This document shows, in pieces, positions 138 through 22,387 of a stretch of 40,772 nt of DNA. The notes beneath the pieces are model-generated. The model saw only the letters and a list, made by a program, of their open reading frames with translations, had not been told where the DNA came from and did not search any database. The stretch covers positions 1 through 40,772 of the IMG/VR virus record IMGVR_UViG_3300042923_000433; one strand, written 5' to 3'. Source of the stretch: a virus. The position numbers and the translations under genes were made by a program. The stretch's first letter is position 1. The number at the start of each line of letters is the position of its first letter.

Positions 138-1790
138 TCAGTAGTAGATGAAGTTGTCCGGCTGCTCAGTCAGAGCACCGTCTGCGATGGCATCCATGCG
201 GGCTTCATGCGCCAGCACTGAGGTCATCGCGAGGTCGATCTTCTGCGGGTCGGTCGGTTTGCCGATGAAGTACCGGTTGATCCCCGTCGCGGGATCAACC
301 CCACGAGCTCGAAGGATCGCGTTCCGCAGATGCGCTTCCACATCCACGTCCCCGTCGTGCGTGAAGTCCGACTCGACGTTGTACACGTCCGTGCGGAACC
401 GCTCGAGCGCCGCATGCATCGGGTTTAGACGGTTCGTCGCCCACTTGAGGAACACCCTGTCGCCGTGTTCAGCGGCCAGGTTGTCGATCTCGGACTCCCA
501 GAACGCGGGGTCGAGGTAGGCGCGGACGATCTCGAACTCTGACGCGATCTGTGACCACGCGGCAGCAACCTCCGCGCGCGGAATACGCCCATCCCAGTCC
601 TGCGGGCGCCAATGCGTCTTCCGACGCGCGTCTCCATAGACGGGGGTGAACTGATACCCGTCGAGCGTTTCCAGCCGGATGCCGGTGTGGTCATCGTTGT
701 TCGACCCGTCGAACCCGGCACACACCTTCGTGCGCGCCGAAACGGTGATGGGCGTCTCGACCTTTCGGTCGGCCCACTTCGTCATGTCCAGCCACGCACC
801 CGAACCGGCAACGATCCGGTTCCCAAAGAACCGCTCCGCCTCAGCAGGATTCGCCTCGGACAACGCCGAAGACTCTGCCTCGATCGACCGCTGATCCACC
901 CACGGCGACCCGCCATAGTTGAACGCGAAGATCAGCGCCCGATCCTTCTTCAGATCGAACCGAAGATTCGCCGGCGGCGGGAAGTAGTGCTTGAGAACGT
1001 CCTTACGCTTCGACTCGTGCGTGTCCTGAGCCTGCGACGCCTCCGCCGGGTCGTACGGGTTCGTGGTCTCAGAGACCCGGCCACCCATACCGGCAGCACC
1101 GCGACGCAACGTCCGCATGAACTTCTTCATCTTGTTCGAGTCAGTCCACAGGCCAGTCTCATCACACTTGCCCGCCGAGATACGCGCACCAAGCTTGCCG
1201 TCAGCCTTCGACGTCACAATCTCGACCCGCGAGTCACGGTTCCCAGACGGGTGACGGATGAACGCCTCACCAGTACGCACGAGGTTCGACAGCGGCCCCG
1301 AGTCGATCATCGGGATGAGAGCACCCCATGTGTTCTCCACCTGATCCTCAACGACAGCCGCGAGCTGGATGCGAGGGGTCGGCCAGTGGCGCCCTTTCGG
1401 CTCCCCCACCTCGTAGAAGTAGACAGCGCCACACGGGCACCCATGATCGGCGCAAGCGTAGAAGTCGCCCTCGACCGCCCACCCATCGAACAGGCACGGC
1501 CCCATGAACTCGAGACACGTCTCCGCAGCAACACCAGGAGACTTCCCAACCTTCTGAGCAGCCATCCACTGGCCCGTGCGATACCTGAACGCAACGTTAC
1601 GTTCACCAGGCTTCGCGGTCGGCCGAACCTCATACCAGTTCGCCAACCACACACGATGATCGAGCGTCGGAGTGAACGGATCACCCGCGGTATCGCCCTC
1701 AGGGACTACACAGTGGTTCTCAATCCACCACATGCCGAGGTAACCGAGGGAACGCGTACGGGGAGGGATCTTGTAGTCAGGCACCTTCAA
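138..1790 (-). CDS. terL: Terminase large subunit
   Basis: A 550-residue terminase large subunit, the motor that cuts concatemeric DNA and pumps it into the prohead through the portal. Seen: a variant Walker A loop VGKSPG (residues 81-86), an acidic Walker B-like pair D210-E211 in a CDETG context, and a C-terminal RNase H-like nuclease region with Asp361 (FDGSNNDD), Asp427 (AYLDP) and a late Asp near residue 525 (KIDLAM). The length is normal for the family. The start overlaps the end of the small subunit by 14 bases. The downstream neighbour across the contig junction is the portal. The Walker A is not the canonical GxxxxGK[ST], which is common in actinophage terminases. Confidence 0.93.
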   Translation of the reverse strand: MKVPDYKIPPRTRSLGYLGMWWIENHCVVPEGDTAGDPFTPTLDHRVWLANWYEVRPTAKPGERNVAFRYRTGQWMAAQKVGKSPGVAAETCLEFMGPCLFDGWAVEGDFYACADHGCPCGAVYFYEVGEPKGRHWPTPRIQLAAVVEDQVENTWGALIPMIDSGPLSNLVRTGEAFIRHPSGNRDSRVEIVTSKADGKLGARISAGKCDETGLWTDSNKMKKFMRTLRRGAAGMGGRVSETTNPYDPAEASQAQDTHESKRKDVLKHYFPPPANLRFDLKKDRALIFAFNYGGSPWVDQRSIEAESSALSEANPAEAERFFGNRIVAGSGAWLDMTKWADRKVETPITVSARTKVCAGFDGSNNDDHTGIRLETLDGYQFTPVYGDARRKTHWRPQDWDGRIPRAEVAAAWSQIASEFEIVRAYLDPAFWESEIDNLAAEHGDRVFLKWATNRLNPMHAALERFRTDVYNVESDFTHDGDVDVEAHLRNAILRARGVDPATGINRYFIGKPTDPQKIDLAMTSVLAHEARMDAIADGALTEQPDNFIYY

Positions 1791-2232
1791 CGGAGACAGC
1801 CTTCAGCCAGTCACCCGACGACGTCTTGCGGGCAGCAGGAGCAGTCGTAGCCGGCGCCGCAGCCGTACCGTCCGAGATCCGCCAGCCGTTCTGACGCATC
1901 CCCGGGATGGACAACCCGAGCTCCGCTTCCATCCGCAGAGCCACCGTCGACCAACCGTTCACAGCCTCGGGAGCCGTCGCCTTGACATAGGCGCGCACAT
2001 AAGCCGCCACCTGAAACTTCAGACCCAGCGACGCCCACGCGGCGCCCTGAGGCTTAGCCCACAACTCATCCCACAACTCAGTCTCGACCGACAACGCCTC
2101 CGCCAGCGGGAAAGCAGGCACAGGACCCGTGTACCCCTCAGCAGGAAGATCAACCCAGTCACGATCAAGAGACCGATACGAGTTCGGATCGGGCGCAGGA
2201 CCACTACGCGCACGAGCACCACCAGAAGGCAT
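1777..2232 (-). CDS. terS: Terminase small subunit
   Basis: A 151-residue protein directly upstream of and overlapping terL, the usual place for the DNA-recognition subunit of the packaging motor. It opens with a glycine/arginine/proline-rich segment (MPSGGARARSGPAPD) typical of actinophage small terminases. A helical core follows that could form the oligomeric ring (LKFQVAAYVRAYVKA), then an Ala/Pro-rich linker and a short C-terminal segment that may contact TerL. The assignment rests on position plus the characteristic N-terminus. No catalytic motif is expected. The ATG at 2232 is the first start after the noncoding region. Confidence 0.85.
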   Translation of the reverse strand: MPSGGARARSGPAPDPNSYRSLDRDWVDLPAEGYTGPVPAFPLAEALSVETELWDELWAKPQGAAWASLGLKFQVAAYVRAYVKATAPEAVNGWSTVALRMEAELGLSIPGMRQNGWRISDGTAAAPATTAPAARKTSSGDWLKAVSVEGA

Positions 2233-2411: not shown

Positions 2412-2762
2412 TCACCGTTGGTTCCAGCCTCCTGGCTGTCTGCCTGCGGTCTGTGTTGAGTCGCATGGTTTGCATAGTCCGCGGCCGGCACTGGGGTCGT
2501 TGGGGTCTAGTCCACGTGCGACGAGTTCGTCGCGTCCGAGTGGGTAGTGGTCTGCGATGACTGAGGGTGCGCGGTGGCAGATGACGCAGATGGGGTGGTG
2601 TGCGAGTACTGCGGCTCTGAACGTCTTGTGTCCACGGGTGTTGGTGTACCTGTCCCTGGTTGCATCCCTGCCCCGGGAGGCCGCTCTACGGTGCTCTAGG
2701 CAGCGTGAGCCCTCACTGGCGGGGAAGATGGTGGGACAGCCGTGGACGGAGCAGACACGCAT
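2412..2762 (-). CDS. HNH endonuclease, terminase-associated
   Basis: A 116-residue HNH nuclease. Visible are a zinc-type pair CVIC, the motif core ADHYPL, and a second Cys pair CKPC, in the order C-x2-C, D-H, C-x2-C expected for the His-Me finger fold. An N-terminal pair of cysteines and a CLEH segment may bind another zinc. The ATG at 2762 is chosen because GGAGG stands 5 bases before it; a longer frame upstream lacks such a site. Its place just before the candidate cos region and terS matches the HK97 gp74 class of HNH proteins, which stimulate terminase cutting. That role is inferred from position. Confidence 0.88.
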   Translation of the reverse strand: MRVCSVHGCPTIFPASEGSRCLEHRRAASRGRDATRDRYTNTRGHKTFRAAVLAHHPICVICHRAPSVIADHYPLGRDELVARGLDPNDPSAGRGLCKPCDSTQTAGRQPGGWNQR

Positions 2763-2797: not shown

Positions 2798-2895
2798 TGG
2801 AGCTGCCGGTAATCGAAACCGGGTAACCGTGTGCTAAAAACCTGACATCGTGTCGATGTTCGGTATTTCGCACATCGGGCTTTCCTGTCAGCCCC
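2798..2895 (-). ncRNA. tmRNA-like / tRNA-like small RNA without an mRNA domain
   Basis: Read on the minus strand, the 98 bases form a 7-bp acceptor stem (GGGGCTG with CAGCTCC) whose third pair is G3-U70, followed by discriminator A73. The T-arm CCGGT-TTCGATT-ACCGG is complete. Where a tRNA has D and anticodon arms there is an unpaired 14-nt D-like region and one long helix: TGTGCGAAATACC pairs with GGTTTTTAGCACA (11 of 13 pairs), capped by ACATCG-ACA-CGATGT. The last 27 bases closely resemble, from memory, the 3' end of actinobacterial ssrA; a T-stem G-C pair is replaced by T-A, a compensatory change. No anticodon, no tag frame and no encoded CCA are seen. It lies between two genes, 36 bases before the HNH start. 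Confidence 0.62.
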
Positions 2896-2952
2896 GTGGT
2901 GTGGTTTGCGCCGTCACCTCGGCGAGATACGGAACCCCCTGATGGTTGCGTG

Positions 2953-20956: not shown

Positions 20957-21198
20957 ACGCCGTCACATACTCGGGGCGCGATGGGTGGGCCGGGATAGAT
21001 ACGGTCGAGGCGGTCGGTGAGGCAGTCGACATGATCGCCGGATGGGCGGGCGACCCGGAAGAAGCGCACTTCGCGGAAGACTCACTGTATCTCCACGTGC
21101 TGAAGCAGATCGCGGAGGGGCGCCCCGCAGACCCATCAGCGTTCGCACGTGAAGCGCTCCGCGCCGAACAACTCGACTTCCCCCACTGGTATGCCTAA
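20953..21198 (+). CDS. Hypothetical protein, 81 aa
   Basis: An 81-residue acidic helical protein (TVEAVGEAVDMIAGWAG, then HFAEDSLYLHVLKQIAEG). ATG 20953 overlaps the previous stop by 4 bases, and its stop lies 8 bases inside the integrase frame. It is therefore translated in one operon with the 94-residue protein and the integrase. A place for a small integrase partner is possible, but no family is recognised. Confidence 0.7.
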   Translation: MNAVTYSGRDGWAGIDTVEAVGEAVDMIAGWAGDPEEAHFAEDSLYLHVLKQIAEGRPADPSAFAREALRAEQLDFPHWYA

Positions 21199-22387
21199 GC
21201 CGTCGCCGCGTAAGAACAAGGACGGTTCGGTTTCGTGGCGGGTGCAGTTCCGCATCGGAGAGAAGGTCGTCCAGGAGACGTTCGAGACGGAGAAGGGCGC
21301 AGCGGAGTTCGCGCGTCTCGTTGAGACTGCGGGCGGGAAGGCCGCCCGGGAGGTACTCACCAGGCGCCGTCAGGGCGAATCTGAGGCGATAACGCTCCGC
21401 ACCTGGACCGCCCACTACCTCAACCCGGACAGTGGCCTCCTGACCGGTATCGAACCCGGCACCCGGAAAGGGTACGAGCGGGCCGCTGAGAGCTCGTTCC
21501 TCCGCATCCTCGGCGACTACCCCGTCGATGCCATCCAGAAAGCCGACGTCGGCCGGTGGCTCGCATGGCAAGAAGTGCAACCCGCGCGTCGTGGTGGGGG
21601 GAAGGCTGTGGCGGCGAAGACGATCCGCAACTACCACGGCATCCTGTCCGCTGTTCTCGCCGCCGCGGTGGCTGAGAAGGTCCGTGACGACAACCCCGCC
21701 TACAAGACACGCCTGTCCAAGGGGGTGAAGCGGGAGGCCGTGTTCCTGTCCCCCGACGAGTTCACCACCCTCCTACACTTCACCACCGACCACTACCAAG
21801 GGTTGGTGATGTTCCTCGCCGGCACCGGCACACGTTGGGGTGAAGCGACCGCAGTGAAGTGGTCCGACGTGAACTCTCGAGCCACCCCCGCGACGGTGCG
21901 TATCGATGAGGCGTGGAAGAAGTCCGAAACGAACGTCCCCGTGCTGAAGCACACCAAGTCGGTGAAGTCGCTCCGCACCATCAGCCTCCCACCCGACGTG
22001 CTCGCCGCGATGGGTGACCGTGGTGCTGCACCCGACCTTGTGTTCTCCACCCGTGAGCTCAAACGACGCGTCCGCTACCAGACGTTCCGTGACCGGGTAT
22101 GGTTGCCCGCCGTCGAGAAAGCCATGAACCCGGACCTGTGCGAACAGGCAGGGCTGACACCACTCACCCGACGCCCCACACCACACGACCTCCGCCACTC
22201 ACACGCCTCCTGGTTGATCGCCGCGGGGACACCACTCCCCTACGTTCAAGCCCGCCTCGGACACGAGTCCATCCAGACCACTGTCAACGTGTACGGGCAC
22301 CTCGTACCTGACGCGCACATTCAGATGGCCGACGTCATCGGCGGCACACTCGCCAACGTTCGCCCGTTGAAGCAGATCGCGGTCTGA
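21191..22387 (+). CDS. int: Tyrosine integrase
   Basis: A 398-residue phage integrase of the tyrosine recombinase family that inserts the genome at the host tRNA-like attB and, with an excisionase, removes it. Seen: an N-terminal arm-binding region (GSVSWRVQFRIG), a SAM-like core-binding domain, and the catalytic residues Arg215 (TGTRWGEA), a Lys in KHTKSVK, His332-x2-Arg335 (HDLRHSHASW), His358 (LGHES) and Tyr368 (VYGHL). ATG 21191 overlaps the preceding gene by 8 bases and is preferred; a GTG at 21149 would add 14 residues. The attP candidate lies upstream at 20378-20592. Confidence 0.95.
   Translation: MPKPSPRKNKDGSVSWRVQFRIGEKVVQETFETEKGAAEFARLVETAGGKAAREVLTRRRQGESEAITLRTWTAHYLNPDSGLLTGIEPGTRKGYERAAESSFLRILGDYPVDAIQKADVGRWLAWQEVQPARRGGGKAVAAKTIRNYHGILSAVLAAAVAEKVRDDNPAYKTRLSKGVKREAVFLSPDEFTTLLHFTTDHYQGLVMFLAGTGTRWGEATAVKWSDVNSRATPATVRIDEAWKKSETNVPVLKHTKSVKSLRTISLPPDVLAAMGDRGAAPDLVFSTRELKRRVRYQTFRDRVWLPAVEKAMNPDLCEQAGLTPLTRRPTPHDLRHSHASWLIAAGTPLPYVQARLGHESIQTTVNVYGHLVPDAHIQMADVIGGTLANVRPLKQIAV

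Follow-up and report, generated by a model that had tools for sequence, protein, structure and literature searches.

What is the 98-nt RNA that can be read from the minus strand at 2798..2895 of the viral DNA analysed here (the window, 40,772 nt), and what might it do beside phage packaging genes? An initial annotation, made from sequence alone, had described it as a tmRNA reduced to its tRNA-like domain (TLD) and as potentially alanylated. This description was supported by the anatomy of the RNA, by covariation among its relatives and by the Rfam tmRNA model (RF00023), which accepts a sister class; charging is inferred.

Read from 2895 to 2798 on the minus strand, the elements follow each other in the order GGGGCTG-ACAGGAAAGC-(hairpin)-TTAC-CCGGT-TTCGATT-ACCGG-CAGCTCC-A. 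The 5' strand of the acceptor stem (GGGGCTG, 2889..2895) contains G3 of a G3-U70 pair and was assigned from sequence and MFE structure. It is followed by a stemless D-like stretch (ACAGGAAAGC, 2879..2888), identified from the fold and by comparison with the D-loops of host tmRNAs, in which the same GG is found. A single long hairpin (2827..2878, RNA positions 18-69, placed by MFE) replaces the tag/pseudoknot domain and is composed of a P2-like helix (CCG/CGG) and a hypervariable apical part; the CCG/CGG base is kept among relatives and the remainder varies. The T-arm (CCGGT-TTCGATT-ACCGG, 2806..2822) was placed by sequence and MFE, and its stem covaries among relatives. The 3' acceptor strand (CAGCTCC with U70, 2799..2805), assigned by sequence, MFE and homologues, pairs with the 5' strand in 7/7 positions including G3-U70, and the sequence gives A73 as discriminator (2798..2798). 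A third pair G-U and a discriminator A are identity elements for alanine. A73 is followed by C74, and CCA is incompletely encoded (CTC).

The MFE structure corresponded to the proposed TLD, with a 7-bp acceptor stem, the T-arm, the stemless D-like stretch and one long hairpin. Its energy was -41.4 kcal/mol, compared with -24.6 +/- 3.0 for shuffled sequences (z = -5.5; 0/200 shuffles as good). A covariance model built from 10 relatives with the window left out (R2) recovered 2895-2798 at 63.4 bits (E = 4.8e-14), and chance resemblance was therefore rejected. Coordinates and anatomy as initially annotated thus held. ARAGORN made no call in the window, Rfam returned nothing at the RNA at gathering score or up to E = 10, and RF00023 run alone on the window gave no match. 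A search for sigma-70 promoter-like sites in the vicinity of the RNA gave none. At 2859-2845 (-), its apical hairpin followed by CAGGTTTTT scores as terminator-like, a feature not common to relatives.

An HNH endonuclease gene (2412..2762, minus strand; PHROG 144, E = 4.5e-12) starts 35 nt downstream of the RNA. The probable terminase small subunit (1777..2232, minus strand) was assigned by position, without a confident domain match, and the terminase large subunit (138..1790, minus strand) is 57% identical to the protein annotated as terminase large subunit in Brevibacterium phage AGM1. Directly before the RNA slot lies a conserved leader (2896..2940, minus strand; AGGGGGTT..TATCTCG..GGTGACG.CGCAAACCACACC), which is shared by relatives with differing occupants; it could be a packaging site, a promoter or a processing leader, and its role is unassigned. 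An integrase is encoded at 21149-22387, 18 kb from the RNA. The terminase large gene is located at the left end of the window (1-40772), and the same strand encodes a head maturation protease close to the right end. Judged by this layout and the integrase, the window may represent nearly all of a temperate phage genome with circular permutation. Among 395 actinobacterial genomes, relatives of the window's terminase were at most 58% identical, and the host of the phage was therefore not identified.

Relatives were searched in IMG/VR. The first DNA pattern consisted of both acceptor strands and the T-loop and matched at least 119 viral contigs; a stricter pattern with a longer spacer matched 21. 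The second pattern fixed D-loop, GAC and T-loop letters only and left the acceptor unconstrained; it matched at least 120 viral stretches in 2.9 million viral contigs. A scrambled T-loop pattern matched 0 viral contigs. In all, about 150 distinct RNAs consisting of a TLD alone, 75-108 nt long, were obtained, a few of which may be chance matches. In the main class (79-nt class, about 75-81 nt) the D-loop (UGGUUUCGAC) is of tmRNA type and the apical hairpin is small. Longer classes are also present, one of which (GGAAAGCCCG) includes the window RNA and has the D-loop GGAAAGC, compared with GGTTTCGAC in the 79-nt class. Extracted elements were not called by ARAGORN, except for two tRNA-like sequences; since it calls none of the TLD-only RNAs, the whole class has been passed over.

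Both classes were connected by covariance models. Model R1, built from the 79-nt class, recovered 8/8 window-class records (E 6e-6 to 1.5e-3) and matched only the T-arm of the window itself. Model R2 recovered the 79-nt members of Pontimonas phage phiPsal1, GiJojo and Jojan60 (E 3e-4 to 5e-3). Streptomyces phages GiJojo, BRock and Tomas and Stenotrophomonas phage Jojan60 carry an unannotated TLD element among or beside tRNA genes. Streptomyces phage Tomas (NC_070781) has a full-size tmRNA match at 97147-97421 (104 bits, RF00023) and a TLD-only element at about 88030-88107. Another viral record from an isolate genome (L078:4775-5328) lines up three elements: a TLD, a sequence resembling tRNA-Leu and another TLD-like element with a weaker score (E = 1.8e-4). 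Two candidates were rejected. Synechococcus phage S-CRM01 (L128:1500-1600) encodes a permuted two-piece tmRNA, unannotated in the record, with the 3' piece before the 5' piece. The 'tRNA-Ala' of Rhodococcus phage Trina, found by blastn likeness, is annotated as a normal tRNA-Ala.

Kinship to tmRNA was assessed with four cellular tmRNAs as yardsticks, whose D-loops are of the GG.NTCGAC type, whose T-arms are preceded by GGAC and which end in CTCCA. The junction letters of the 79-nt class match these cellular ends, with GGTTTCGAC in the D-loop and GGAC preceding the T-arm. RF00023 scored 79-nt members at 54-72 bits, above its cut-off of 47, with matches spanning model positions 1-374 and the middle missing, whereas window-class members reached 27-38 bits or nothing. 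The 79-nt class is thus tmRNA by Rfam's own threshold, and we interpret the window class as a more diverged form.

Homologues with broken acceptor stems would have spoken against the reading, as pointed out in the initial annotation. For 71 distinct 79-nt-class elements from the acceptor-unconstrained pattern, 7/7 acceptor pairs, G3-U70 and A73 were each found in 71/71. These comprise 21 acceptor sequences with several Watson-Crick pairs at positions 4, 5 and 6. As the 5' offset was picked for best pairing, acceptor strands were swapped among elements as a control; 7/7 pairing persisted in 21%, as expected because many elements share a stem. P2 pairs at positions 1-8 were present in 93, 93, 93, 84, 89, 88, 79 and 72 of 95 elements of the same class, compared with a swapped-strand mean of 38-52 for positions 2-8 (position 1 is near-invariant and uninformative). 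Covariation was counted on equal-length members or without alignment, because MAFFT misaligned the acceptor stems; for 18 equal-length members the score was 0.70, compared with 0.17 for shuffled and at most 0.14 for slid partners. The initially noted absence of tag frame and pseudoknots also held: the RNA has only 98 nt, and the family shows no excess of tag frames, any GCN..stop frame occurring in 34/86 elements vs 26 in shuffles (range 16-39).

This conservation bears on two other explanations. As a relic, the RNA would be a decayed ssrA, as the initial annotation had considered, or an attP copy of a tmRNA 3' end left by integration. In favour are the integrase of the window phage and the likeness of the RNA's 3' end to tmRNA attP regions from mycobacteriophages, but 5' and 3' halves are both present and covary, the integrase is 18 kb distant, and mycobacteriophage DS6A, a related case discussed below, integrates at a tRNA-Lys gene (PMC10865867). 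The relic is all but excluded, and decay of an ssrA was rejected on the ground that the family as a whole maintains its stems. As a passive SmpB sponge, the RNA would inhibit host tmRNA by SmpB binding alone, with charging irrelevant. TLD-only RNA is reported to inhibit tmRNA in E. coli, perhaps by titration of SmpB (PMC4131195 and PMC11915505, citing Mao 2009), and the DS6A-like TLD inhibited whether or not it was chargeable (Mao et al. as reported in PMC4131195). Against the sponge, G3-U70 and A73 in 71/71 diverse homologues imply selection for alanylation, an inference made without charging data. The strict G3-U70 would thus suggest that charging matters, and we consider a mere sponge unlikely.

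TLD-only RNAs are viral and almost absent from bacterial chromosomes. In bacterial and archaeal genomes totalling 257 Gb, the second pattern gave 6 matches, of which no more than two are real (Cellulosimicrobium clearly a TLD, Synechococcus doubtful); the remaining ones were rejected as chance. Model R1 gave 12 matches at E <= 1e-5 across the 395 actinobacterial genomes. Five, each 87 nt long, were rejected as cellular TLD-only RNAs, being 3' ends of the cell's own full-length tmRNA; two correspond to tRNA-Ala or overlap one; a further match (L317) is shortened; and four are genuine TLDs. Three of these adjoin phage terminase or phage exonuclease genes and the fourth lies near phage-type glycosyltransferases. 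Full-length tmRNA is also present in 3/4 of their genomes. The five full-length tmRNAs (L318, L319, L322, L323, L324) repeat GGGGCTGAGAAAAGCG 87 nt upstream of the 3' end, and this second copy could pair with the acceptor 3' strand.

Close relatives of the window were collected via the terminase large subunit. They share a leader of about 65 nt ending in ..GGTGACGACGCAAACCACACC, directly before the RNA. TLD occupants behind this leader have differing hairpins and the acceptor stems GGGGCTG, GGGCCTG, GGGGCG and GGGCCG. The same slot holds tRNA-Gln(CTG) in L237:2971-3070, tRNA-Asn(GTT) in L241:3860-3960 and an undecoded tRNA-like element, possibly a tRNA without D-arm, in L243:3862-3990 and L283:2734-2860. 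Among close relatives, the slot upstream of the HNH-terminase genes thus behaves as a cassette position for tRNA-like genes. In 17 distinct TLD-like occupants, G3-U70 was present in 16 and A73 in 17; 14 pair 7/7 and three 6/7. Most of them had been found via the acceptor pattern, so the fair test is restricted to four relatives found via the terminase gene only (L239, L244, L245, L265). Three of the four have G3-U70; one has seven acceptor pairs and keeps G3-U70, and three have six. The L239 member carries G3-C70. In L116:3370-3460 the P2 helix is unpaired and the halves resemble two different relatives; this member is possibly a recombinant or an assembly chimera.

The neighbours of the RNAs bear on a role in cis, in which a tRNA-like processing site (RNase P / 3' endonuclease) would set late-mRNA ends upstream of HNH-terminase or capsid genes. 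HNH endonucleases are frequent beside the window class (13/63 proteins scanned), the window RNA itself being separated from its HNH gene by only the 35-nt gap; the downstream gene of the 79-nt class is the major capsid gene in at least 14/70, and the TLD of L331 is located just upstream of a terminase gene. Against this, G3-U70 is unnecessary for processing and some members lie within tRNA arrays, and the cis element is very unlikely. RNA-level control of the HNH/terminase transcript, another suggestion of the initial annotation, was not supported as a general function because homologues precede capsid genes or stand inside tRNA arrays.

The tRNA-like company of these RNAs is also relevant for a decoy function towards host defences targeting tRNA, tmRNA or SmpB-like domains; a tRNA without anticodon could not be cut by anticodon nucleases. 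In favour, true tRNAs fill the same slot in relatives, Streptomyces phages hold the TLD RNA in tRNA arrays with RNA ligase genes adjoining, and the SmpB-like domains of CoCoNuT defence systems are predicted to bind tmRNA (PMC11090510). However, no link to any particular defence was found, and ribosome entry accounts better for the alanine identity and the junctions of tmRNA type. A decoy is therefore regarded as unlikely.

The reading preferred here, with modest confidence, is that the window RNA is a phage-encoded, alanylated tagless tmRNA which uses host SmpB and diverts trans-translation. Its structure, the AlaRS identity elements, covariation, the viral distribution and the absence of a conserved tag frame are shown; expression, charging, SmpB binding and an effect on the host are inferred. 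The RNA would be excised from a transcript as tRNAs are, receive CCA from the host and be charged with alanine by host AlaRS via G3-U70 and A73. It would then bind host SmpB and EF-Tu as the tmRNA end does and enter stalled ribosomes in competition with host tmRNA. SmpB is known to bind the TLD and to stand in for the anticodon arm; in vitro, a TLD fragment together with SmpB supported untemplated polyalanine synthesis (PMC3929946). Since the RNA has neither a resume codon nor a tag frame, the nascent chain would be taken over without a proteolysis tag, and host trans-translation would be suppressed or diverted. The outcome could be either blocked tagging or rescue without a tag, between which we do not decide.

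Several points stand against the proposal. Inhibition alone, which is reported without charging (PMC4131195), leaves the strict alanine identity unexplained. The window-class D-loop differs, its score is below the RF00023 cut-off, and R1 finds no more than the T-arm of the window. Slot members include L239 with G3-C70 and L116 with its broken P2. A bolder reading, which we regard as rather doubtful, is that widespread, unrecognised viral tagless tmRNAs take over ribosome rescue: alanyl-TLD and host SmpB would accept stalled chains, which would then be released or extended with alanine but receive no degradation tag; viral proteins would thereby be protected, or host defences that rely on trans-translation defeated. 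Should SmpB and stalled ribosomes be the targets of the RNAs, trans-translation would have natural inhibitors or modifiers in them. Each RNA is encoded by one gene of about 80 nt, open to deletion or to expression in trans, so that the part which ribosome rescue plays when phages infect could then be tested directly.

Compared with bacterial tmRNA (ssrA, RF00023), the phage RNAs have the same acceptor stem, G3-U70, A73, T-arm and stemless D-loop, and in the 79-nt class only also the D-loop letters and the GGAC junction, but they lack the mRNA-like domain, tag frame and pseudoknots and are 75-108 nt long instead of about 350. Unlike permuted two-piece tmRNA, the window RNA has the standard 5'-3' order. 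With tRNA-Ala it shares the alanine identity elements and the T-arm, but it has no anticodon arm and no D-stem and is not called by ARAGORN. Mitochondrial (RF02544) and Mallomonadaceae plastid CDS-less tmRNAs are likewise tagless TLDs, the mitochondrial one being retained together with SmpB (PMC11915505); mitochondrial forms are usually permuted, whereas the phage RNAs are one-piece with a capped P2 helix. One survey detected tmRNA with ARAGORN in 402 phages (PMC9004378). Another, of 97,179 sequences, listed 9 standard-form CDS-less tmRNAs and one TLD-only phage RNA, that of DS6A (PMC11915505), which had been listed as 'TLD only' before (Mao 2009; Hudson 2014, PMC4131195). The initial impression that such an RNA would be new failed in part, as DS6A is a precedent, the only phage one in the open-licence literature searched; reports elsewhere are possible. 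That literature contained neither the size of the family nor its conservation of G3-U70 and A73 under unbiased sampling, and neither the class with the long hairpin nor the exchangeable slot; these points are apparently new. The DS6A RNA likewise comprises little beyond the tmRNA tRNA-like domain and no tag frame, and the definition it meets, a phage gene consisting of the tmRNA TLD only, is met by the window RNA on a viral contig with integrase and terminase. DS6A is a single reported case, whereas the present family is large and its window class, placed in an exchangeable tRNA slot near the terminase genes, is distinguished by a long, variable hairpin.
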